Source: Methanolacinia petrolearia DSM 11571 | Lineage (GTDB): Archaea > Halobacteriota > Methanomicrobia > Methanomicrobiales > Methanomicrobiaceae | NCBI RefSeq assembly: GCF_000147875.1 | Contig: NC_014507.1 | Location: forward strand, 2,728,001 to 2,792,000 | Length of the DNA stretch: 64,000 bases | Direction of reading: 5' to 3' | In this document: one piece after another, positions 30 to 9,166 of the stretch | Position numbering within the stretch: position 1 is the stretch's first letter | Layout of the letters: every line of letters begins with the position of its first letter | Program-made: the position numbers and the translations under genes | Notes under the pieces: model-generated | What the model saw: only the letters and a program-made list of their open reading frames with translations | The model's database searches: none | Told to the model about the DNA's origin: nothing

Positions 30-377
30 TCATAAGGCTGCAATGATCCTTTCGCGATTTTTCTTGAGCTCGTACCTGATCCTGCCCACGTTCACATCCT
101 TCTGGGCGACAATTGCGATCAGTTCGTCCTCGGAAAGAGGGGAGATCAGGATCGGCCCTTCATCGAGCTCGATAATTATCTGGTTCATCTCATTTTTTCC
201 AAGCTCCCTGCCCATCGCCTCCGATGTACCAAGACCGGTGGAGGCCATCGCCCCGAGAGCATCTATATCGACGTCTCCCGAGACGGCACTCTCAATCACA
301 AAGCCGTCCCTTCCCGCAACAACGGCGGCTGACACACCGTCAAGTTTCAGAAATTCGCTGAGTATCTGTTTAAGCAT
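30..377 (-). CDS. Roadblock/LC7 (MglB-like) protein
   Basis: A 115-residue single-domain Roadblock/LC7 protein. The fold is recognised from the N-terminal helix, the strand GVSAAVVAGRDGFVIESA, the helix with ALGAMASTGLGTSEAMGREL and the paired strands MNQIIIELDEGPILISPL. In bacteria such proteins (MglB) dimerise and act on Ras-like GTPases; in archaea their partners are mostly unknown. It is the last gene of a nine-gene leftward operon, 26 bp after the hydrogenase large subunit, with a GGAGA site 9 nt before the ATG. No GTPase of the MglA type is in the window, so the partner may be the MinD ATPase or the DUF2226 and roadblock-like proteins of the same operon. The family call is firm; the role is inferred. 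Confidence 0.88.
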   Translation of the reverse strand: MLKQILSEFLKLDGVSAAVVAGRDGFVIESAVSGDVDIDALGAMASTGLGTSEAMGRELGKNEMNQIIIELDEGPILISPLSEDELIAIVAQKDVNVGRIRYELKKNRERIIAAL

Positions 378-403
378 ATATCATCTGTCTCCTTTTCAAC
401 TCA

Positions 404-1780
404 TTATCTTTCGGGTTTTCTCCTTACAAGCTCAATATCCACGGGCATCTGTCCTATTGCATGCGTGGCGCAGGAGATGCAGGGATCATACGCCCTTATA
501 ACCATCTCGATGCGGTTCGCGGCACTCTCGGAGAGAGAACCGCCGGACACCACCTTTCTCGCGACATCCTCAACACCCCTGTCCATGCCGAAGTTGTTCT
601 GGCAGGTCGCGACAATCAGGTTGCAGTCGGTGATGAAACCCTCCTCGTCAACCGAATAATCGTGGATTAACGTCCCGCGGGGCGCCTCGACAATTCCCAC
701 ACCCCGCAACTTGGAAACGCCGGAGACGGGTGTTCTTACATCTCCACCGCATATGGATGGATCCGAGAGATATTCAACCGCCTTCTCGCAGCATGACAGA
801 AATTCTATGTACCTTGCCATATTGTAGGCAAGCGTCGTCTGCGTAAACTCGCCGAAGGTGCTCCTGTACTCAGTGAGCGCCGCATCCGCCTCGGGCGTGC
901 CCATCTCTTTTACAATATTCAGCCTAGCAAGCGGCCCGACGCGATAGTAATCACCACCCTTAAGCCTTGAAAATTTGAGATATGACCAGTCCTCTGAGTA
1001 TTCCTCGATCAGGTTGAGATAATCGGCACCTGAAAAAGCTGAGACAGGGCTCCCGTCCTTTCCTACGACGTTCACTTCGCCTTTATATGCCGAAAACCTG
1101 CCGTTATCTGACATACCCATAAAGGCGGTATCAACGGCACCGAACGAAAGATCGGTCTGGTCGAGGATCGTCCTGGCAATACTCCATCCCTCCCTCGCCG
1201 TTTCAAGAGACTTTTTGCTCATCTCAAGAAGTTCCAGCCTCTTCGACTCCGCAAGGGGATGCGATACTCCGCCGGGTATGCATGTCGAGGGATGAATCGG
1301 CTTGCCGCCGATCGCCTCCGTCATCCTCTGTCCGAACTTCCGGACTTCGATCGCTTTTTTCGCGATATCTGGGGCTTTTTTGACAAGACCCAGGACGCTT
1401 CTCTCGGCTGCAGGTGCATCATGGCCGATCAGGAAGTCCGGGGCCGCAAGCATAAAGAAGTGAAGCGAGTGCGAATGAATGAACTGTCCGACCATGAGAA
1501 GTTCACGCAGTTTTTTTCCCGTTGCCGGAGGAGCAGCCCCGAAGATCTCATCGCAGGCTTTGGCTGCTGCAATGTGGTGAGCCGTCGGGCAGATACCGCA
1601 TATTCGCGGTGTTATCCTCGGCGCCTCCTCGACTGCGGCACCGATCATGAACTTTTCAAATCCCCTGAGTTCGACTACCTCAAAATGGGCGTTATCGACA
1701 TTCCCGGAATCGTCGAGATTTATCTTAACCCTCGCATGGCCCTCGATCCTCGTAACGGGGTTTATCGTGATCTCCTTCAT
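404..1780 (-). CDS. [NiFe] hydrogenase large subunit, group 3c (MvhA)-like
   Basis: 458-residue catalytic subunit that binds the Ni-Fe centre. The N-terminal ligand motif RICGIC lies at residues 59-64 and the C-terminal motif DPCISCATH at 432-440; together they give the four nickel cysteines (61, 64, 434, 437). Eighteen residues follow His440, a tail of the kind that maturation proteases remove, and such a protease is encoded at 5924-6406. NPVTRIEGHARVKI at the start and HSHSLHFFMLAAPDF resemble MvhA of F420-nonreducing hydrogenase. The start at 1780 is preferred because it follows AAAGGAG and overlaps the small-subunit stop as ATGA; an open frame continues upstream but is not homologous. No FrhB or MvhD gene is present, so the electron acceptor is not the standard one. 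Confidence 0.93.
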   Translation of the reverse strand: MKEITINPVTRIEGHARVKINLDDSGNVDNAHFEVVELRGFEKFMIGAAVEEAPRITPRICGICPTAHHIAAAKACDEIFGAAPPATGKKLRELLMVGQFIHSHSLHFFMLAAPDFLIGHDAPAAERSVLGLVKKAPDIAKKAIEVRKFGQRMTEAIGGKPIHPSTCIPGGVSHPLAESKRLELLEMSKKSLETAREGWSIARTILDQTDLSFGAVDTAFMGMSDNGRFSAYKGEVNVVGKDGSPVSAFSGADYLNLIEEYSEDWSYLKFSRLKGGDYYRVGPLARLNIVKEMGTPEADAALTEYRSTFGEFTQTTLAYNMARYIEFLSCCEKAVEYLSDPSICGGDVRTPVSGVSKLRGVGIVEAPRGTLIHDYSVDEEGFITDCNLIVATCQNNFGMDRGVEDVARKVVSGGSLSESAANRIEMVIRAYDPCISCATHAIGQMPVDIELVRRKPER

Positions 1781-2694
1781 AGGCTTCTCTCCTTTACAAG
1801 GTCGCGGATCTTGGAATTCTCCTTGTCCTCCATGATCAGGCTCCCGATGGTGAACGGGTACATCGTATGGGCAACATCGTACAGCTCCTCCTCGATCTCC
1901 TTCTCCTTGTGATCGGTGAGATCGGAGATCCTCCTGACCATCATATTGTATAGATCGCGGCACGGCTCCCTCAGTATATCCAGCGAAGGCCCGTTGCACC
2001 CGTGGCATGGCACGTTGTTCTTCGGGCATGAGGCGCCGCATCTCCCGAATGTCACCGGCCCGAGGCAGAGGTAGCCCTGGCCGAGAAGGCAGTGCTCTCT
2101 GTCGGGCACGCCTTCATAACGGCGCTTAAGCTTCCAGCCTTCAACAGATCCCATCTTCCTGTCGCATTCCGAGCACACCGACTTTCTTGAAAGATCAAGG
2201 CTGTCACCTGCAATCAGGGCAGGAATAATCTCCCTCAAAAAGTTCTCTTTCGGCGGGCAGCCGGTTATGTAATAGTCCATCATTGCAAGATCCCCCACCG
2301 CAAATGCCCTGTATGTAAACGGGGGAACACCCGAGGGGATCTTCCCGTCTTCACCGACCGTCGCACCATTACGGTAAACCTTGTTGAAGATCTCAGCGTT
2401 GCTGCTCAGCATGGACAGACCGGACACACCGCCGTAGCATGCACAGGTCCCAAGAGCCACAAGGACCTTCGATCTCTTCCTGATCATCTTCAGGCGCTCA
2501 CGGTTCTCCTCGTTCCTTACCGCACCCGTTACAAACGCAATATCTATTCCCTCGGGAGGCTCCTTAACATCCATGATTACGGGCGAATAGACGATCTCGG
2601 CCTTTTCGACGACATCGAGAAGCATCTCGTGCAGGTCTAAAACGGCAATCGTGCAGCCGGAGCACCCGGCAAGTTCCTCTATTGCTATCTTCAT
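1777..2694 (-). CDS. [NiFe] hydrogenase small subunit (MvhG-like)
   Basis: 305-residue electron-transfer subunit. Proximal-cluster cysteines are Cys11 and Cys14 (GCSGC), the GTCACYGG pair around 84-86 and CPP at 146. A second set of cysteines (174, 177, 202, 210, 219, 223, 230, 233) fits two more Fe-S clusters, as in MvhG and related cytoplasmic group 3 small subunits. There is no twin-arginine signal and no membrane anchor, so the enzyme is cytoplasmic. The ATG at 2694 follows GAGGTG by 6 nt and is better than the GTG at 2703. The gene follows the V4R-like gene by about 10 bp and overlaps the large subunit by 4 bp, so expression is coupled. Confidence 0.92.
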   Translation of the reverse strand: MKIAIEELAGCSGCTIAVLDLHEMLLDVVEKAEIVYSPVIMDVKEPPEGIDIAFVTGAVRNEENRERLKMIRKRSKVLVALGTCACYGGVSGLSMLSSNAEIFNKVYRNGATVGEDGKIPSGVPPFTYRAFAVGDLAMMDYYITGCPPKENFLREIIPALIAGDSLDLSRKSVCSECDRKMGSVEGWKLKRRYEGVPDREHCLLGQGYLCLGPVTFGRCGASCPKNNVPCHGCNGPSLDILREPCRDLYNMMVRRISDLTDHKEKEIEEELYDVAHTMYPFTIGSLIMEDKENSKIRDLVKERSL

Positions 2695-2704
2695 TCCCTG
2701 CACC

Positions 2705-3268
2705 TCACTTAAGAATCAGTTTTTTCAGGCAGGCATTAGGGCCTGTATGCTTGATCTCCAGCTTTGCACGCTTTCCGGTAATCTCCTCGATCGCCCCGAC
2801 GACATACCCGCAGAGGGTCTGGCAGAGCGGGCCGGCCTGCCCCTGCCCGTTTCTCCGCAATGTCTGGCGAACGATGCAGTCGTGAAACACGAGATAGATG
2901 AACCTCTCCCCCCCCTCTTCTATGAGGAACGTATCGCTGTCCGCCGGTTTCCATACCTCAAAAGAGTACTGCCCCTGGAGCAGGTCGGAGAGTTCATGGA
3001 GTGCATCCTCGATATCTTCTCTCTTCTGGAAATACTTCGCAACCTCATGGCCGAACTTCTTCCCGGCCCTGAAGGTCACCGCATTCGCCCCCCTTCCTGC
3101 AATCTCTTCAAGAGAGCGTATAACAAGCCCGTTGAGCTTCATAACCCCATGAAGGGTAGCCTCCAATTCCTTTACGGGAGGCACGCAGTTCAGCGGGACA
3201 TCCTCCGACTTGTAGCTTATGTCGGTGCTGAACCTTTCATGCAGTTCGTCTACATAACTTGCGGCCAT
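2705..3268 (-). CDS. V4R (4-vinyl reductase)-like domain protein in hydrogenase operon
   Basis: 187-residue protein. The central ANAVTFRAGKKFGHEVAKYF and the C-terminal block HDCIVRQTLRRNGQ, LCQTLCGYVVGAIEEITGKR and TGPNACLKKLI resemble the V4R/hydrocarbon-binding fold, a small-molecule-binding domain found in archaeal regulators and in tetrapyrrole-related proteins. It contains several cysteines (NCVPP, HDC, GPLCQTLCG, NAC) that could bind metal. The start at 3268 is chosen because it forms an ATGA overlap with the ferredoxin stop; an upstream in-frame ATG at 3295 would overlap by 28 bp. Its place between ferredoxin and small subunit suggests an accessory or sensory role in the hydrogenase complex. 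The fold call is tentative. Confidence 0.6.
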   Translation of the reverse strand: MAASYVDELHERFSTDISYKSEDVPLNCVPPVKELEATLHGVMKLNGLVIRSLEEIAGRGANAVTFRAGKKFGHEVAKYFQKREDIEDALHELSDLLQGQYSFEVWKPADSDTFLIEEGGERFIYLVFHDCIVRQTLRRNGQGQAGPLCQTLCGYVVGAIEEITGKRAKLEIKHTGPNACLKKLILK

Positions 3269-3513
3269 CAGATCACCCGGTTCAGCATCTCGCATACGCG
3301 GATATCGATATAATGCCTCTTTGCAGGATATATCCCACTGTGCTCAAGCGCCTGTGCCGGACATATCTCATGGCATGAAAGACAGCCCATGCAATCCTGC
3401 GGCCTCACCGGAACGCTACGCTCCTCCTTAAGTTCGAAGACCTTCATGGGACAGTCCTTGACGCAAAGACCGCACCCGACACAGGATGCCTCGTCAACCT
3501 TAATTTCGATCAT
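3268..3513 (-). CDS. 2[4Fe-4S] ferredoxin-like polyferredoxin subunit
   Basis: 81 residues with two full cluster motifs, CVGCGLCVKDCP at residues 11-22 and CMGCLSCHEICP near 42-53, as in bacterial-type dicluster ferredoxins. It is likely the electron-transfer partner of the hydrogenase encoded just downstream, since no FrhB, MvhB or MvhD gene is present. The C-terminal 25 residues after the second cluster are basic and aromatic and could dock to the small subunit. It overlaps the following V4R-like gene by 4 bp. Confidence 0.93.
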   Translation of the reverse strand: MIEIKVDEASCVGCGLCVKDCPMKVFELKEERSVPVRPQDCMGCLSCHEICPAQALEHSGIYPAKRHYIDIRVCEMLNRVI

Positions 3514-3547
3514 AATTTCACCAACACCAAAAACCCTAAAATTTCAA

Positions 3548-3751
3548 TTAGAACTTAATACCCCCAAGGCCGCGAATCGCATCCGCAAGCAGATCAACAT
3601 CGCTGTTGGAGAATTCCACGTTCCATTTCAGTTCCTTCACTTCACGGGACAGCATGTTGATGCGAACCTTCATCAGGATGATTACGAGGATAAAAATAAC
3701 GTTCACCACAAGCTGTCCGATTATCATCATTTCATATAACTCCATCTTCAT
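3548..3751 (-). CDS. Small single-pass membrane protein with coiled-coil tail
   Basis: 67 residues. One hydrophobic segment at about residues 7-27 (MMIIGQLVVNVIFILVIILM) is followed by a charged helical stretch and the acidic segment SNSDVDLLADAI. It overlaps the MinD gene by 4 bp (ATGA), which supports translation and coupling to it. The family is not recognised. A membrane-anchored helix next to a MinD ATPase could be a membrane receptor or activator, in the way MinE or a receptor works with MinD; this is inference from context only. Confidence 0.7.
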   Translation of the reverse strand: MKMELYEMMIIGQLVVNVIFILVIILMKVRINMLSREVKELKWNVEFSNSDVDLLADAIRGLGGIKF

Positions 3752-4545
3752 CTGACCCCCGGGAACAGGGCGCGTGCAAGGCGTTCCACGAATTTTTCTT
3801 TCTTCTTGGATTCCACCGCTTTATCGGTTTCAGTTTCTTTAATACCTGCAATATCTCTCGCCAGCTTCCGGAACGCCTTTGAAGCACCAGAGGAAGGATA
3901 TTTAAGAACAACGGGAGCCCTGGAGGCCGAGGCACGCCTGACATTGGCATCCTCGGGGATCATCGCGATGACCTTCACTCCGAGCATCTTTTCGATCTGC
4001 TCCTTTGTCATATCGTCATCCTCGGAATTTACACGGTTCAGGATCGCACCCCTGATCTTTCCCCCGATCATCTCGGTAAGCATCTTGGTCTTAAGAGCAT
4101 CCAAGATCGAGGATATATCGGGAATTACCACAAGGATAACCTCGTCGGCTACAGCGAGGGGCACGATCCCGTCGTGGTTTATCCCAGCGGGAGCATCGAT
4201 AATCAGTACATCGCACTCATCGACGATCTCGTTCATAACATCCCTCAGCCTGTCGGGATTCGCATCCTTAAATCCCTCTAGCGACAGACCGCTTGGAATG
4301 ACGTTTACTCCGAAAGGCCCCTCATAAATTGCATCGTGGACATCCGCCTTTCCTGCCAGAACCTCATGAAGCGATACCGGCATTTTCTCAAGACCCAGGA
4401 CGAGGCCCAGGTTGGCCATACCCACATCGGCATCGAGGATGTATGTCCTTTTTTTATAATACGCAAGCATCGAACCGAGATTTGACGTAACAGTGGTCTT
4501 CCCGGTTCCTCCCTTGCCCGATGCAATAGTAAAAACTATTGTCAT
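3748..4545 (-). CDS. MinD/ParA-family ATPase with membrane-targeting tail
   Basis: 265-residue P-loop ATPase of the MinD subgroup. The deviant Walker A KGGTGKTT lies at residues 11-18, the switch I region DADVGMANLG near 39-48 and the Walker B-type DVLIIDAPAGI near 111-121. The last residues, FVERLARALFPGVR, form an amphipathic basic helix like the MinD membrane-targeting sequence. MinD proteins dimerise on ATP binding and attach to the membrane to place other complexes. Here the gene lies between a membrane-anchored roadblock-like protein and the hydrogenase genes, 46 bp and 4 bp from its neighbours. The likely job is to position or regulate the hydrogenase or its partners, not division-site choice; that is inferred. 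Confidence 0.9.
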   Translation of the reverse strand: MTIVFTIASGKGGTGKTTVTSNLGSMLAYYKKRTYILDADVGMANLGLVLGLEKMPVSLHEVLAGKADVHDAIYEGPFGVNVIPSGLSLEGFKDANPDRLRDVMNEIVDECDVLIIDAPAGINHDGIVPLAVADEVILVVIPDISSILDALKTKMLTEMIGGKIRGAILNRVNSEDDDMTKEQIEKMLGVKVIAMIPEDANVRRASASRAPVVLKYPSSGASKAFRKLARDIAGIKETETDKAVESKKKEKFVERLARALFPGVR

Positions 4546-4591
4546 ATTTTCTTACCCCATCTAAACAATCCACAAACTGATTCCTGACGAA

Positions 4592-5239
4592 TCAGACAGA
4601 TTTTCTTAAAATGAACCTGATATCACGCTCTATGAATTCAAGCTCCTTTTCTGTAAGCTCATCTTCTGCCTTTACTATGCCGACAACCGTCCCCCCCTTG
4701 TAGGGAACTCCAATTAGTTTGACATTCGGCACTTCCGGTTGCTTTCCCTGCTGGTGCAGGTAGCTGTACCTGGCTGCCTCCTCCTCCGGGTCGGGATCGG
4801 TTGAACTGATTACAAGCCCGTCCGATGTCGACATTGTAAACGATTTGAGCTTATAGCGATCAAAGAGCGCAAGAAGGTTGTCGCGGATTGCATCGGCCGT
4901 ATAATATTCGGCAGGGTCTTTCCCCCTCTCCTCTTCAAGATGCCGTCTCTCCTCCTCCCTCTGTCTCCGGACAGCCTCCTCGTCAGGTTCTGTGGCAGTC
5001 TCTCCGGCTGAATACTCGTCATATGAAAGGAGCTCCTCTTCCGCCGGCTGCAGTGAGATATCCTCCTGCTCATGCCGGGCAGAAACGGATTCAGCCATTG
5101 CGGAGCCCATCTTCTCATAAAGTTTTTTGATGTAAATCTGCTGCCTGATTATGAATATCAGGATTAAAAGCAGGATTACTATCACAACAGCAGCGAACAC
5201 CAAAATATACGCTGCCGGATCAATGTCAATGCTTATCAT
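4592..5239 (-). CDS. Membrane-anchored roadblock-like protein
   Basis: 215 residues. A transmembrane helix lies at about residues 8-30 (ILVFAAVVIVILLLILIFII). A long acidic and Glu/Arg-rich linker runs to about residue 105. The C-terminal globular domain begins with IRDNLLALFDRYKLKSFTMS and has TSDGLVISST, then VKLIGVPYKGGTVVGIVKAE, which has the strand-helix pattern of a Roadblock/LC7 domain. The start at 5239 is chosen because GGAGG lies 6 nt before it; the ATG codons at 5245 and 5263 are badly placed for that site. It overlaps the DUF2226 gene by 14 bp. It would tether a roadblock dimer to the inner face of the membrane near MinD. The domain assignment is from pattern only. Confidence 0.72.
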   Translation of the reverse strand: MISIDIDPAAYILVFAAVVIVILLLILIFIIRQQIYIKKLYEKMGSAMAESVSARHEQEDISLQPAEEELLSYDEYSAGETATEPDEEAVRRQREEERRHLEEERGKDPAEYYTADAIRDNLLALFDRYKLKSFTMSTSDGLVISSTDPDPEEEAARYSYLHQQGKQPEVPNVKLIGVPYKGGTVVGIVKAEDELTEKELEFIERDIRFILRKSV

Positions 5240-5798
5240 CTTCATCCTCCCCGGATTTGTCATTTATAATGAGGTGATCGAGATTTATTCTCTTCAGGAG
5301 ATCCCTGGCACCGGAACGGAAATTGGTGACTATTGACTCAATCTCCGATTCGTCTATGAATATTTCACAGCTGTTTCCCGCATCGGCTGTCTCTTCCACT
5401 TCAGGTTCTGGTTCTCTGGCTTTTTTTTCAGCAACCCTCTCAACAGATCTCCTCTTCTCCTGTGTTCCGGGAAAAACAGTCACAGGCACCTCTTTCGTCA
5501 CAATGCACTTAGGATTGAACTCACTCGCCAGTTTAAGCTCGGAAGGATTGTAAAACGATAATTCAGCTGATAAAATACCGCCAGGGTTAGAATTGAGCTT
5601 ATTTAAAGCGTCCGCTCCGATATCGGGAGAATATTCTGCGAGGATGATGGTCCCGTTATCAAAAACAATCTCAACAACCGATTCTTCAACGGTCCCCGAA
5701 CATCTCCCCGAATATCCGGCCTCCCCCAATTCCTTAACAATCCCCGAAATTGTTCCTTCCGGAACAAAACGATCAAACCTGCCTCTTGGCAGTTGCAT
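5226..5798 (-). CDS. DUF2226-like protein, first gene of hydrogenase operon
   Basis: 190 residues. The N-terminal ~100 residues (QLPRGRFDRFVPEGTISGIV, FDNGTIILAEYSPDIGADAL) match my memory of the archaeal DUF2226 family, whose function is unknown. The C-terminal half is a charged linker followed by a helical end rich in acidic residues (SGEDEDDKH). It has no membrane segment. It is the first gene of the leftward operon, with a 125-bp promoter region upstream, and its end overlaps the membrane-anchored roadblock-like gene. DUF2226 and roadblock-like proteins often look related in strand pattern, so the two may interact. Confidence 0.7.
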   Translation of the reverse strand: MQLPRGRFDRFVPEGTISGIVKELGEAGYSGRCSGTVEESVVEIVFDNGTIILAEYSPDIGADALNKLNSNPGGILSAELSFYNPSELKLASEFNPKCIVTKEVPVTVFPGTQEKRRSVERVAEKKAREPEPEVEETADAGNSCEIFIDESEIESIVTNFRSGARDLLKRINLDHLIINDKSGEDEDDKH

Positions 5799-5923: not shown

Positions 5924-6406
5924 TCAATTGTCTTTCTCATCTACAACATCCATAATCAGTATCGATGCATTTCTGACGCCTTCCATGACCCCGGGATCGA
6001 TCTTATCTGAATATTCTGCAATCGTTCCCGCTTCAATACCTACCGCAATAATTTCGGTTCCGGGATTCAGTTCGCGGGCAATATCGATAACCTCGGCCAC
6101 ACCGATATCCTGAAAAGACATCCGGGAAGGTTTGTAGGGAGGGGTTTCGGCAAATATACGAATATCTCCGGGATTTTTGCAGATTCCGGTCATTGCATCG
6201 GCAATAATCACGAGATCTGCCCCTTCGATAAGGGGAAGAAGACCGATGCCGCCGGTTCCCCCTTCAATTAATTCCAGCCCGGAGCAGGACTTTTCAAGGA
6301 TATCCAGTACACGAAGGCCTGCTGAATCGTTACCCATCAGCAGGTTCCCGCAGCCGATTACGCGGATACACTTCTTCCCTGTATTCAGACACCTCTTTTC
6401 AGTCAA
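5924..6406 (-). CDS. Hydrogenase maturation endopeptidase (HycI/HyaD family)
   Basis: 160 residues. The N-terminal GCGNLLMGNDSAG at residues 18-30 is the family signature, with Asp27 as a nickel ligand; LVIIADAM holds the second conserved Asp. These proteases cut the C-terminal tail of the [NiFe] large subunit after nickel is inserted, and the large subunit at 404-1780 has such a tail. The start is a TTG with GGAGGA 8 nt upstream. The gene is 21 bp downstream of feoB, so it appears to be expressed with iron uptake genes. This makes it the likely processing enzyme for the neighbouring hydrogenase, though other hydrogenases of the cell could also be its substrate. Confidence 0.9.
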   Translation of the reverse strand: MTEKRCLNTGKKCIRVIGCGNLLMGNDSAGLRVLDILEKSCSGLELIEGGTGGIGLLPLIEGADLVIIADAMTGICKNPGDIRIFAETPPYKPSRMSFQDIGVAEVIDIARELNPGTEIIAVGIEAGTIAEYSDKIDPGVMEGVRNASILIMDVVDEKDN

Positions 6407-6427
6407 AGACAGATCCTCCCCGTTATC

Positions 6428-8290
6428 TTACAGTATATTGAATACAAAATTCAAAATTGCACCGCAGACCATTCCGAGACAAAGGGTGTAGAATGAAACC
6501 ATTGCTGCAATCTTCAGCCCCATCTCCCTGTACAGGACTGCAATCGTGGATACGCACGGGACAAAGAGAACGCTTACAACAGCAAATATATAGAGCTGGG
6601 ATGCAGCCATAACCGCCCCGAGATCGGCAGTGCCGGCAAGAACCGCAAGGGTCTCGAAGGCCATCTCCTTCCTAAAAATCCCGAATATGAGCGAGGTAGA
6701 TGCATAATCTGGAAGACCGAGCACCTGCTCCATGAAAGGTGCGAAGATTTTCTGGAATTCCGCCAGGATGCCGAAGAAGTCGAGCATCCCGAGGAATACG
6801 CTGCTTACAAGCAGGAGCGGCATTGCAATGAATAAAAACTCCTTCATGTGAAGCCACGCCCTCCTGACCGTCTGGTCTGCACGAGGTTTTCTCAGAGGAG
6901 CCATCTCAAGTATCATCCCGTACTGCTCCCCCGGAGTGAACCGTGTCAGGACGAAGCCCGTCAGTATTATCAGAAGGAAGACAAGTAGGTATATCGAAAA
7001 TGCAGCGGTTATTCCCACGAAAACCGCAACAATACCGGCAATTATCACGGTCCTTGCAGAGCACGGGACCATAGTTATCAGGAAGGAGGCGATCACCCTC
7101 TCCCTTTTTGAAAGCTGGCGGATACTCATTATCGCAGGGACATTGCACCCGAAGCCGAGGATCAGCGGAATAAGGGCCTGACCGTGCATCCCGATCCTGT
7201 GCATCGCCCTGTCGGCAAGGAAGGCGCCGCGTGTCATATAACCCGAATCCTCGAGTATTGATACAAGGATATAGAAGGTAAAGACAAACGGAAATGCAAT
7301 GCCGAGACCTGCCTCTATAGCAATAAGGAGGGAAAACACCATCTTCTCCCAGAACGGAGACAGCCCCAGCGTATACATCGGAGCGATAATCCACGTATCA
7401 AAGAATTCGACTATCAGCTCTTCGAGAAATGAACCGATAATAAACACTGCAAGAAGCGTGACGAAAAGAATTGCGATAAGTATTGGTACACCGGGAATAA
7501 CCCTTGTAAGAAGGCTGTCTATATCGAAAGACGGCCTCTTTGAGCCGTCCCCCCTCTTTTCGGTAACCTCGGATGCAATCCGTGCAGCCTCGTTGTGGCG
7601 GTTCGTCGCAATTATCTGGTGAGGGGACATCTGGTGATCCTCCTCAATCTCGGAGGCTATGGTCCCGGCGGCCTCCATGAGCTCCTTATCCTCGCCGATT
7701 CCCTGAAGAGCCAGAAATGCATCCATTCTGCTGCAGCCGGTAAGCTTTACGAGACTGCGGACCCCGGCTTCTATATGCTTTCCGTAGGGCACGTGAAGAT
7801 CTATAACGGCGGCATCCTGCATCGCTGCAGGAATTATGAGGTCTATATTTTTTCCCTCAAGTGCAACTGTAGGAATTACCCTGCAGCCGAGAATTGATGA
7901 AAGTTTCTCATAATCTATTATTTTGCCCTGTTTTTCCGCTTCATCTGCTATATTTACGACCACTATCAGCGGAATTTTGTATTCTGAAGCCTGAATGAGA
8001 AGATACAAGTTTCTCTCAAGTTTGGTTGCATCAAGAACGACTATGAGTGCGTCGATATTGTTCGTCCGAAGGTAGGATCTGACCTGCTCCTCTTCCTCGG
8101 TTTTTCCTTCTAGCGAATATATTCCGGGAAAGTCGATGAGTTCGAGCCTCTCCCTCTGGTAACAGACATTCCCGGAGAGCATATCGATGGTTGTTCCGGG
8201 AAAGTTTGATATTTCGACGCCTATTCCGGTCAACTGGTTGAATATAAGAGATTTGCCCACGTTTGGGTTTCCAATCAGCGCGAACTTCAT
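6428..8290 (-). CDS. feoB: Ferrous iron transporter FeoB
   Basis: 620-residue Fe2+ uptake protein with an N-terminal G-protein domain and a C-terminal membrane domain. The G1 loop GNPNVGKS is at residues 7-14, the G3 motif DFPG near 55-58, and an NxxD-type base motif (VVNIADEAEK) follows. The membrane part has paired Gate motifs, with GFGCNVPAIM and the later VPCVSTIAVL giving the conserved cysteines of the pore. The ATG at 8290 overlaps the stop of the DtxR-FeoA gene (ATGA); the GTG at 8296 is less likely. Length is slightly short of the bacterial norm (about 650-770) but the domains are complete. Confidence 0.95.
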   Translation of the reverse strand: MKFALIGNPNVGKSLIFNQLTGIGVEISNFPGTTIDMLSGNVCYQRERLELIDFPGIYSLEGKTEEEEQVRSYLRTNNIDALIVVLDATKLERNLYLLIQASEYKIPLIVVVNIADEAEKQGKIIDYEKLSSILGCRVIPTVALEGKNIDLIIPAAMQDAAVIDLHVPYGKHIEAGVRSLVKLTGCSRMDAFLALQGIGEDKELMEAAGTIASEIEEDHQMSPHQIIATNRHNEAARIASEVTEKRGDGSKRPSFDIDSLLTRVIPGVPILIAILFVTLLAVFIIGSFLEELIVEFFDTWIIAPMYTLGLSPFWEKMVFSLLIAIEAGLGIAFPFVFTFYILVSILEDSGYMTRGAFLADRAMHRIGMHGQALIPLILGFGCNVPAIMSIRQLSKRERVIASFLITMVPCSARTVIIAGIVAVFVGITAAFSIYLLVFLLIILTGFVLTRFTPGEQYGMILEMAPLRKPRADQTVRRAWLHMKEFLFIAMPLLLVSSVFLGMLDFFGILAEFQKIFAPFMEQVLGLPDYASTSLIFGIFRKEMAFETLAVLAGTADLGAVMAASQLYIFAVVSVLFVPCVSTIAVLYREMGLKIAAMVSFYTLCLGMVCGAILNFVFNIL

Positions 8291-8967
8291 TGACACTCTT
8301 CGCCGGGAATTTTTTTAACAATTACTCGTCCTGCAATCTCCTGGCTTATTGCAACCTCGCTGTCCTTTACCAGCACGAGGACGGATCTGCCCGGAAGTCT
8401 CCTGATGATCTTTATCTCCTCACCTGGGATCATCCCGAGATCGATGAGACGCCGCCCTCCCCCGGGTCCATGCCTCATACCTAAAACCTTCAGATAATCC
8501 CCCTCGTCAAAATCATCAAGGACATTTAAATTGCACAATTTCCCCTGAGAGTGCCGTTCTATAAATCCCATACCATGTCTTCTTCCCCTGCATCTTATGC
8601 CGCTGCCGGAGAGAAGGTTTCCGATCTTATCTATGGTATATTCGGAGGCTGAATGCTCCATCTCGCATGCCTCCTTCGAAGCGGTTTCCGCATCCATTCC
8701 CAGCATTTCAGTAAAAAAGCATTCAAGAACCCTGTGTTTTTTCAGGACGGATTCGCCTGTCGCCCTGCCCTTTTCGGTAAGGGTGACCGAACCGTCGCTG
8801 CCGATCTTCAGATCACCGCTCTCTTCAAGATCAGCGAGGTCGGCCGCGATTTGATCCTCGGATCTGTCCAGTACTCCTGATAATAAGTGGAGAGCCCCGG
8901 CTCCATGCCCCTCTGCAGAATGCATAATTATCGCTTCAAGGTAATCCTCACGCTCAGACTCTTCCAT
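8287..8967 (-). CDS. DtxR/MntR-type regulator fused to FeoA domain
   Basis: 226 residues. The first ~65 residues (EESEREDYLEAIIMHSAEGH, then HLLSGVLDRSEDQIAADLADLEESGDL and VTLTEKGRA) are the winged-helix domain of metal-dependent DtxR repressors. A dimerisation domain with metal-ligand residues follows (KKHRVLECFF, EACEMEHSAS). The last ~75 residues (LRMH-like LGMRHGPGGGRRLIDLGMIPGEEI, RSVLVLVKDSEVAIS) are the SH3-like FeoA domain. It probably binds Fe2+ or Mn2+ and represses its own operon, while the FeoA part may also serve FeoB. The start at 8967 is chosen because the domain begins there; the upstream extension to 9072 runs through the promoter. Confidence 0.87.
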   Translation of the reverse strand: MEESEREDYLEAIIMHSAEGHGAGALHLLSGVLDRSEDQIAADLADLEESGDLKIGSDGSVTLTEKGRATGESVLKKHRVLECFFTEMLGMDAETASKEACEMEHSASEYTIDKIGNLLSGSGIRCRGRRHGMGFIERHSQGKLCNLNVLDDFDEGDYLKVLGMRHGPGGGRRLIDLGMIPGEEIKIIRRLPGRSVLVLVKDSEVAISQEIAGRVIVKKIPGEECQ

Positions 8968-9016
8968 AAATCCAAAGAAGATTTGCTCTTTGATTACAAA
9001 AATATTAGGATTGTTC

Positions 9017-9034
9017 GGATTTTTATAAAAATCC
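9017..9034 (-). promoter_or_regulatory. Palindromic operator over TATA box of the feo operon
   Basis: GGATTTTTATAAAAATCC is a perfect 18-bp palindrome 50 bp upstream of the DtxR-FeoA start. Its centre (TTTATAA) is the only good TATA element for leftward transcription, so a bound dimer would block TBP. This is what an autoregulated iron repressor operator looks like. Binding by the adjacent DtxR-FeoA protein is inferred. Confidence 0.6.
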
Positions 9035-9166
9035 AAAAACCCTCCTTTCCATAATCGGACAGCAAAAATCACCGCAGAGACTTAGACCGGCTTGGGATCG
9101 AGTCTGCCAGAGACCCGGAAATCCCTCATCCAAAAAAGATAATTTCAGACAGATAGATCTTTATCC

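Follow-up and report, generated by a model that had tools for sequence, protein, structure and literature searches.

Linkage of a [NiFe] hydrogenase operon to roadblock and MinD genes in Methanolacinia petrolearia and related archaea, and its possible tie to type IV pilus-like machinery

Several described systems resemble one part or another of a minus-strand gene run at 30-5798 of a 64,000-nucleotide stretch of Methanolacinia petrolearia DSM 11571 (NC_014507.1, positions 2,728,001 to 2,792,000; the window), in which both subunits of a [NiFe] hydrogenase (HydL and HydS) are encoded together with a ferredoxin, a V4R-like protein, roadblock-type proteins and a MinD ATPase. By sequence, MvhAG and VhuAG of the HdrABC-MvhAGD complex are close characterised methanogen relatives of HydLS, but the HydLS cluster differs from them in having V4R, roadblock and MinD neighbours and no recognised MvhD, Hdr or polyferredoxin gene. 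In HupUV-type hydrogenases the large subunit is missing the C-terminal extension, and the partner is a histidine kinase. HupUV/HoxBC resemble HydLS in using a hydrogenase as a signalling input, which for HydLS is a proposed logic only; unlike HupUV, HydL has a C-terminal extension, and no kinase was recognised in the cluster. The MglA/MglB switch of Myxococcus and Thermus shares roadblock proteins with the cluster, whose membrane-anchored member (rbTM) matches MglB in fold, but MinD is the only nucleotide switch here. It has been reported that MinD2 and MinD4 of Haloferax affect the placement of archaella and chemosensory arrays (PMC11588486); compared by description, the likeness lies in archaeal MinD-family ATPases and the placement of surface machinery, and the abstract of that study mentions no hydrogenase or roadblock operon. 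Makarova 2016 expected that clade 2 archaeal pili are served by FleN/MinD ATPases and noted that various pilus loci contain roadblock proteins (PMC4858521). Some relatives' loci have in common with these PilB3-like systems a T2SSE ATPase with PilB3-type ends, two T2SSF genes, an A24 peptidase, MinD and roadblock genes, a putative clade 2 assignment that is our own; they differ in having a hydrogenase/V4R/ferredoxin cassette within the locus, and the word hydrogenase does not occur in the main text of Makarova 2016 (PMC4858521). No published description of a hydrogenase-roadblock-MinD-pilus cluster was found among open-licence PMC papers; a preliminary description of the window had remarked that its author had not seen a membrane-recruited redox complex of this kind described.

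The genes are transcribed in the order duf, rbTM, minD, tm, fdx, v4r, hydS, hydL, rbA, rbB. When we searched 232 Methanomicrobiales genomes (E cut-offs of 1e-60 for hydL, 1e-10 for v4r and 1e-25 for rbA), hydL was found in 77 and v4r in 76, every one of them a hydL genome and none of them among the other 155. The only hydL genome without v4r, G003, has an incomplete hydL, truncated where its 3.6-kb contig ends, and v4r lies at a single place per genome except for two genomes with contig-split pieces. In 75 of the 77 hydL genomes, rbA comes next after hydL, on the same strand and within 309 bp; both misses are contig edges, one contig starting inside hydL and the other ending 43 bp after it. 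Since MinD paralogues are common (156 of the 232 genomes at 1e-75), co-occurrence of MinD is uninformative, and we used adjacency instead. MinD was located on the same strand within 8 kb of hydL in 55 of the 77 genomes, upstream in 36 and downstream in 19. The side depends on the family (families are given as handles such as f1, f2, f4, f5, f6, f9, f10 and f14), with upstream MinD in 7 of 20 f1 and 29 of 36 f4 genomes and downstream MinD in 12 of 12 f5 and 7 of 9 f2 genomes. The short gap between tm and fdx also recurs, measuring 38 bp in L007, 79 bp in L080 and about 35-70 bp, from the ends of the matches, in L078, L079 and L081.

The same association is observed outside the order. All four matched genomes of the Methanocella family (f14) have fdx-v4r-hydS-hydL-rbA-rbB, then two other genes ahead of minD; in two of these genomes a tm-like gene was identified by homology, and in a third as an open reading frame (ORF), and a protein of similar size to tm comes after MinD in the Methanocella loci L126, L127 and L129. 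In a phylum sample of 392 genomes, v4r was found in 46, 11 of which lie outside the order. Seven of these distant loci are not from f14, and five of them (three f9, two f10) have hydS, fdx and hydL beside v4r. The f9 loci (3/3) contain V4R, hydS, fdx and hydL with a roadblock gene nearby. In L175 the order is V4R-V4R-hydS-fdx-hydL, followed on one strand by further genes including rbTM-like, MinD, rbA and DUF2226 genes, and in L173 and L174 the nearby rbA is divergent. The f9 MinD strongly matches 1hyq of Archaeoglobus fulgidus (353 bits), and the similarity of this one protein suggests that f9 may be the Archaeoglobaceae. Chance abutment of two operons, the alternative considered in the preliminary description, is ruled out by this recurrence in different gene orders and families. 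The link that it had proposed instead is borne out by the counts for rbA and MinD and by the four Methanocella-family genomes, and homologous hydrogenase genes of relatives clearly do occur together with MinD/roadblock genes. We therefore hold the linkage of hydrogenase to roadblock and MinD genes with high confidence.

In a number of relatives the linked genes lie within type IV pilus-like loci. In the Methanogenium, f5 and f2 loci, the block is placed between an A24 prepilin peptidase gene and a T2SSE ATPase gene with PilB3-type end domains, and two T2SSF genes come after the ATPase where this was checked (Pfam on L094). Of the parts of a type IV pilus-like system, those covered here, ATPase, T2SSF protein and prepilin peptidase, are encoded in some relatives' operon loci. 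In both f10 loci (L176 and L177), fdx-V4R-hydS-hydL is followed on the same strand by the T2SSE ATPase, with hydL-ATPase gaps of 55 bp in L176 and 107 bp in L177, the latter counted from the start that matches L176. The gene after the f10 ATPase is cut by the contig end and is T2SSF-like by eye, with no Pfam match in L177, where MinD is divergent. An ATPase homologue was present at E ≤ 1e-60 in all 20 genomes tested, and the best matches show 66-100% identity within the order and 50-52% in Methanocella. In the host genome and four others, the peptidase, a gene of the 204-residue type and the ATPase are adjacent, and nothing matching the block lies between them; in this separate host locus, ATPase and peptidase were assigned by homology and the T2SSF-like genes by eye. 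Since the block is absent at these syntenic pilus loci, fdx-v4r-hydS-hydL-rbA-rbB must have left or entered them in one piece; in Methanoculleus and the window's clade, it is found joined to duf-rbTM-minD. The neighbouring leuS and PIN-domain genes were seen in L022, L088, L131, L143 and L167-L169; flank names in relatives (leuS, PIN, hisI, HdrABC, MvhD) were assigned by eye. Separately, a second, diverged rbA-rbB pair lies in divergent orientation between the hydrogenase genes and the prepilin peptidase in two genera (L009/L082 and L086).

The dependence between the two groups of genes is one-sided. Where the DNA allows a check, the hydrogenase was never seen in the order without rbA, whereas rbA often occurs without the hydrogenase: it was found in 148 of the 232 genomes, 73 of which have no hydL match at 1e-60, including one, G083 (L139), whose hydL is cut by a contig end. 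In all 11 hydrogenase-free f6 loci with rbA that were examined, rbA-rbB occur together with MinD and the pilus ATPase, and the prepilin peptidase is also in view in 10; a twelfth f6 region, L093, was included because of its MinD and lacks rbA. In L143 (G110), one reading frame runs from the first ~20 ferredoxin residues straight into the C-terminus of HydL, and rbA-rbB and the pilus genes are intact beside this in-frame fdx::hydL deletion scar, which by its sequence means that the hydrogenase was lost naturally, barring an error of assembly. Neither hydrogenase nor MinD is present in L140 (G115), which keeps rbB-rbA-rbTM-duf. A module dedicated to the hydrogenase is ruled out by this persistence of roadblock and MinD genes in hydrogenase-free genomes; the one-sided dependence is what would be expected if the hydrogenase were an optional input to a switch.

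We then compared the hydrogenase itself with known enzymes. HydL (404-1783, minus strand, 459 residues), assigned by Pfam and NCBIfam, keeps both CxxC pairs (RICGICP, DPCISCATH) and the C-terminal extension AIGQMPVDIELVRRKPER, and from these motifs, the extension and a nearby maturation protease it looks like a catalytically competent [NiFe] large subunit. HydS (1777-2694, minus strand, 305 residues), also assigned by Pfam and NCBIfam, is a small subunit of the MvhG type whose best PDB match is MvhG of 5odc (243 bits). The best PDB match of HydL is 7t2r (425 bits), with MvhA of 5odc at 409 bits, and its 408 bits against the VhuA equivalog fall short of the NCBIfam cut-off of 800. We built a maximum-likelihood tree from 36 large-subunit sequences (LG+G4 on 456 columns, with ultrafast bootstrap, UFBoot), only four of them outside sequences of known structure. 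In it, the roadblock-linked HydL proteins, 19 from Methanomicrobiales and 4 from Methanocella, formed a clade with UFBoot 93, a moderate value, the 19 Methanomicrobiales sequences alone being held at only 51. The second Methanocella copies clustered with MvhA of 5odc and 9sw2 (UFBoot 94), and this MvhA clade joined 7t2r and 5xf9 at UFBoot 88. The operon hydrogenase is shown by this tree to form a sequence lineage of its own, distinct from the Mvh that is linked to Hdr.

Each of the four Methanocella-family genomes contains both lineages, and the second copy adjoins HdrABC/MvhD genes in both regions read; the literature on Methanocella paludicola agrees on an Mvh copy beside HdrABC/MvhD (PMC3146512). 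By genome position, one of the two Mvh sets described for that species (PMC3146512) appears to be the roadblock-linked lineage. Anderson 2009 assigned genes of M. marisnigri to the F420-non-reducing hydrogenase and located a D-subunit gene next to Hdr in three members of the Methanomicrobiales (PMC2686161). The hydL of G052 sits about where gene number predicts Memar_1007-1008, and judged by this position the hydrogenase taken as Mvh in the M. marisnigri paper (PMC2686161) is probably the roadblock-linked lineage as well. Should these sets indeed belong to a separate lineage, the H2 source of heterodisulfide reductase in such Methanomicrobiales would have to be reconsidered. Among the cluster proteins and inspected flanks, no MvhD, Hdr, polyferredoxin, or F420- or NAD-binding subunit was recognised.

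The v4r product (187 residues from a conserved start, 2705-3268, minus strand, ORF to 3295) and rbTM matched none of the Pfam or NCBIfam families above cut-off. In Pfam, v4r had no PF02830 match, and ATC_hydrolase reached 18 bits, below its cut-off of 28.1; the ATC hydrolase family has been put together with V4R (PMC5847659). When the AlphaFold2 model of v4r was compared with the PDB using Foldseek, it matched TRAPPC3 (6e-5), the phenol sensors MopR, PoxR and DmpR (from 2e-4) and the V4R protein MJ1460 (1.4e-3), and the 20 chains at E ≤ 0.001 were TRAPP, MopR/PoxR/DmpR and two designed proteins. The model thus suggests, at the level of the fold, that the protein belongs to the V4R/TRAPP/H-NOX group. 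Its cysteines C37, C140, C158 and C189 are invariant in 19 sequences, and Galperin 2018 described an output domain of methanogen signalling proteins, MetOD1, that resembles HNOB/V4R/ATC hydrolase and has three conserved cysteines (PMC5847659).

Among the roadblock proteins, rbA (30-377, minus strand, 115 residues) is a stand-alone roadblock/LC7 protein (PF03259, 2.2e-16), and rbB has a C-terminal roadblock domain; both belong to Robl_LC7 by Pfam, and rbTM by its fold alone. The rbTM protein (4592-5263, minus strand, start possibly 5245, 223 residues) has an N-terminal hydrophobic helix and a C-terminal domain, modelled at predicted local distance difference test (pLDDT) values above 90 for residues 131-220, that matches MglB and roadblock domains in Foldseek (best E 8e-4). 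The fold matches of both v4r and rbTM have modest E-values and target-normalised template modelling scores mostly of 0.4-0.6, and they support fold-level statements. The preliminary description had named the families of most of these genes: its roadblock, hydrogenase, ferredoxin and MinD calls agree with Pfam and NCBIfam, which confirmed rbA, rbB, hydS, hydL, fdx, MinD and the maturation protease, and its V4R-like and membrane-roadblock calls hold by fold only. Its ninth gene (duf), labelled a DUF2226 protein, had no DUF2226 match at E 0.1 in the Pfam search; such a match was found instead in the rbB homologue of L175, and the N-terminus of rbB is similar to DUF2226 proteins by eye.

Against the NCBIfam MglB equivalog, rbA scored 23 bits where the cut-off is 200. 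The host genome, searched as one contig of 2,843,290 bp, contains no PF00025 (Arf-type) GTPase, PF00071 and PF08477 not having been searched, and the control was positive in 13 of 14 genomes. A reading of the roadblock genes as an MglA-MglB pair is weakened by this lack of an Arf-type GTPase. We also observed a second cluster with roadblock-like genes in the genome of one f10 locus (L180, G427:C130, 476-2806), in which a P-loop GTPase-like protein of 165 residues, assigned by eye, lies between two roadblock-like genes, with a third one and MinD 3 kb on; this cluster might be an MglA-bearing version of the switch.

MinD (3748-4545, minus strand) is a MinD/FleN-type ATPase that scores 324 bits against TIGR01969 (archaeal MinD; cut-off 202) and has 1hyq as its best PDB match. 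Its amphipathic C-terminal tail, KFVERLARALF, has a hydrophobic moment of 0.84, equalled by 56 of 5000 shuffles, uncorrected. By hydropathy, the tm protein (3548-3751, minus strand, 67 residues) and rbTM have one strongly hydrophobic stretch each, and with these two neighbours the MinD tail makes membrane recruitment plausible. A second MinD of the host (L077, 7669-9246; C1, about 1,773,669-1,775,246) is likewise followed by a hydrophobic protein of 67 residues, and a roadblock-like gene in divergent orientation and a response-regulator-like gene, both assigned by eye, lie ahead of it; MinD, a tiny membrane protein and a roadblock protein may be a general archaeal unit.

Based on these observations, we suggest that the ten genes might work together as a single unit, half of it input and half of it switch. 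In the input half, HydL-HydS, the 2x[4Fe-4S] ferredoxin and the V4R/TRAPP-fold protein would report or pass on the H2 or redox state; the switch half, made up of rbA, rbB, the membrane-anchored rbTM, MinD with its putative membrane-binding tail and two small or unassigned partners, would assemble at the membrane and control where a PilB3-type machine is placed or how active it is. The pilus genes of the window's species lie elsewhere in the chromosome, and the switch would act on them in trans. We infer the contact of the parts, the electron or redox flow from the hydrogenase to V4R and roadblock proteins, the placement by MinD and the pilus as output. This account is preferred as the simplest one to cover a V4R protein that is nearly always present, a cluster in which no acceptor subunit was recognised, the pilus loci and a dependence that runs one way, and a hydrogenase that feeds a pilus or positioning switch fits that asymmetry better than a placed redox enzyme does. 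In our estimate, the proposal that an H2 or redox input is coupled to a MinD/roadblock switch at the membrane, used by a type IV pilus-like machine as well, is evenly poised between right and wrong. The longer chain is only tentative, in which a dedicated hydrogenase lineage acts through ferredoxin and V4R on roadblock/MinD proteins that set the assembly or placement of the pilus-like machine (or of hydrogenase and machine together), in at least four lineages of one phylum, and we are just as cautious about its corollary that many Methanomicrobiales are without the H2/redox input yet keep the surface switch. If true, H2 metabolism would be tied directly, at the genetic level, to the control of the cell surface or of polarity in archaea, and the chain would be a candidate explanation of the way in which methanogens sense or chase H2, for which G110 is a ready comparison species.

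Here, we need to consider a number of observations that weigh against this account. Among 20 loci with at least 5 kb downstream of hydL, drawn from 32 named loci, the ATPase lies within 4.2 kb in five (L009, L012, L022, L037, L038). In 12 chosen hydL regions of the order it is near in seven (L082, L084, L086, L088-L091; L082 and L009 are the same contig) and not in the other five, the window's own included, and in Methanoculleus, Methanocella and the window's clade the cluster has no pilus genes next to it. In 6 of the 77 hydL genomes MinD shares the contig but is far away, in 12 it is on a different contig, and in 4 it was not among the matches listed. The two weakest distant v4r loci (f24, f18) have no hydrogenase, and weak rbA relatives occur in many f9 genomes without a v4r match, so that a nearby roadblock gene is weaker evidence in f9. 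The v4r model has a pLDDT of 69, which is moderate only. An MglB-like action on an Arf-type GTPase is unlikely because the genome has no PF00025 protein. The lack of a C-terminal extension by which H2-sensing HupUV-type hydrogenases are recognised is not seen in HydL, which from its cysteines, extension and protease looks like a working enzyme rather than a HupUV sensor. Finally, hydL is the only large subunit closely related to MvhA in the host genome, and because of this HydLS may still feed Hdr.

The last point leads to the alternative that survives best, in which HydLS is a placed redox enzyme that feeds Hdr, via an MvhD encoded elsewhere, or another acceptor, and MinD and the roadblock proteins recruit it to the membrane or a pole; the link to pilus genes would then reflect MinD/roadblock proteins with several cargoes. 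The retained catalytic motifs and maturation protease, the closeness of HydS to MvhG of the Hdr complex together with the standing of HydL as sole close MvhA relative, the F420-non-reducing assignment and D-subunit gene beside Hdr in Anderson 2009 (PMC2686161), and the MinD tail with its hydrophobic partners all agree with it. It is harder to reconcile with a clade separate from the Hdr-linked Mvh, with the presence of both in Methanocella, with a cluster in which no MvhD or Hdr gene was recognised, and with a V4R-fold partner in 76 of 77 genomes and roadblock/MinD genes that persist without the hydrogenase; the f10 operon with its pilus-type ATPase is left unexplained. We consider a placed enzyme, and with it the several-cargo view of the pilus link, doubtful. 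It is near the membrane-recruited hydrogenase complex of the preliminary description, of which the conserved association and plausible membrane recruitment stand and the notion of a module belonging to the hydrogenase does not; since roadblock/MinD genes adjoin the pilus ATPase without any hydrogenase, a placed redox enzyme is only one option.

Shared regulation could also bring these genes together, through co-transcription for one condition such as low H2 and with no physical or signalling contact. Operons are often grouped by condition, and the pilus genes, the MinD set and the hydrogenase are each separate in some lineages. We judge it unlikely: in all 75 genomes of the order whose DNA covers the site, rbA is the gene directly behind hydL, the block fdx-v4r-hydS-hydL-rbA-rbB has moved together, and several families show the association again with other gene orders. 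An electron conduit, in which the hydrogenase trades electrons with a pilus-linked or surface acceptor or donor and the pilus locus marks extracellular electron transfer, would suit hydrogenase genes that lie with a dicluster ferredoxin inside or next to pilus-type genes, but is very improbable, no multihaem cytochrome or exported redox protein having been recognised among the cluster proteins (relatives' flanks inspected by eye only, export signals not searched).

All nine ORFs of the preliminary description are open on the minus strand at 30-5798, and it had missed a tenth gene that lies mostly outside the window: rbB (231 residues) has its 3' end at 1-33 on the minus strand and continues to -662, extending the run beyond the left window edge. 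The computed spacing agrees with the earlier claim of one-strand genes with gaps of at most 46 bp and about 34 bp before the ferredoxin gene (negative values being overlaps): -4 bp for rbB/rbA, 26 for rbA/hydL, -7 for hydL/hydS, 10 for hydS/v4r, -1 for v4r/fdx, 34 for fdx/tm, -4 for tm/minD, 46 for minD/rbTM and -20 for rbTM/duf. Here v4r was taken from codon 10, a methionine invariant across 19 aligned sequences, and rbTM from 5245. The ferredoxin gene fdx (3268-3513, minus strand, 81 residues) was assigned by Fer4 families, and duf (5226-5798, minus strand, 190 residues), the first gene of the run, has no Pfam match and has homologues that adjoin rbTM-minD in relatives.

A distance of 125 bp separates duf from the next gene upstream, which encodes a HycI/HupD-type hydrogenase maturation protease (5924-6406, minus strand; PF01750, 2e-11; TIGR00072 above cut-off) and is a probable functional partner of the operon. 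In L095 (G056, 6148-8911), the maturation protease stays with duf-rbTM-minD although hydL is 1 Mb away. Directly upstream of protease and operon, the window contains FeoB and a regulator/FeoA-like gene (6428-9072, by eye), and homologues of these genes also lie ahead of the cluster in L007 and two further genera (L079, L080, L081); a link of these neighbours to the cluster through iron is possible. In one Methanoculleus (L025, 6886-8058), a TnpB-like gene of 390 residues, assigned by eye, splits the operon between MinD and the ferredoxin.

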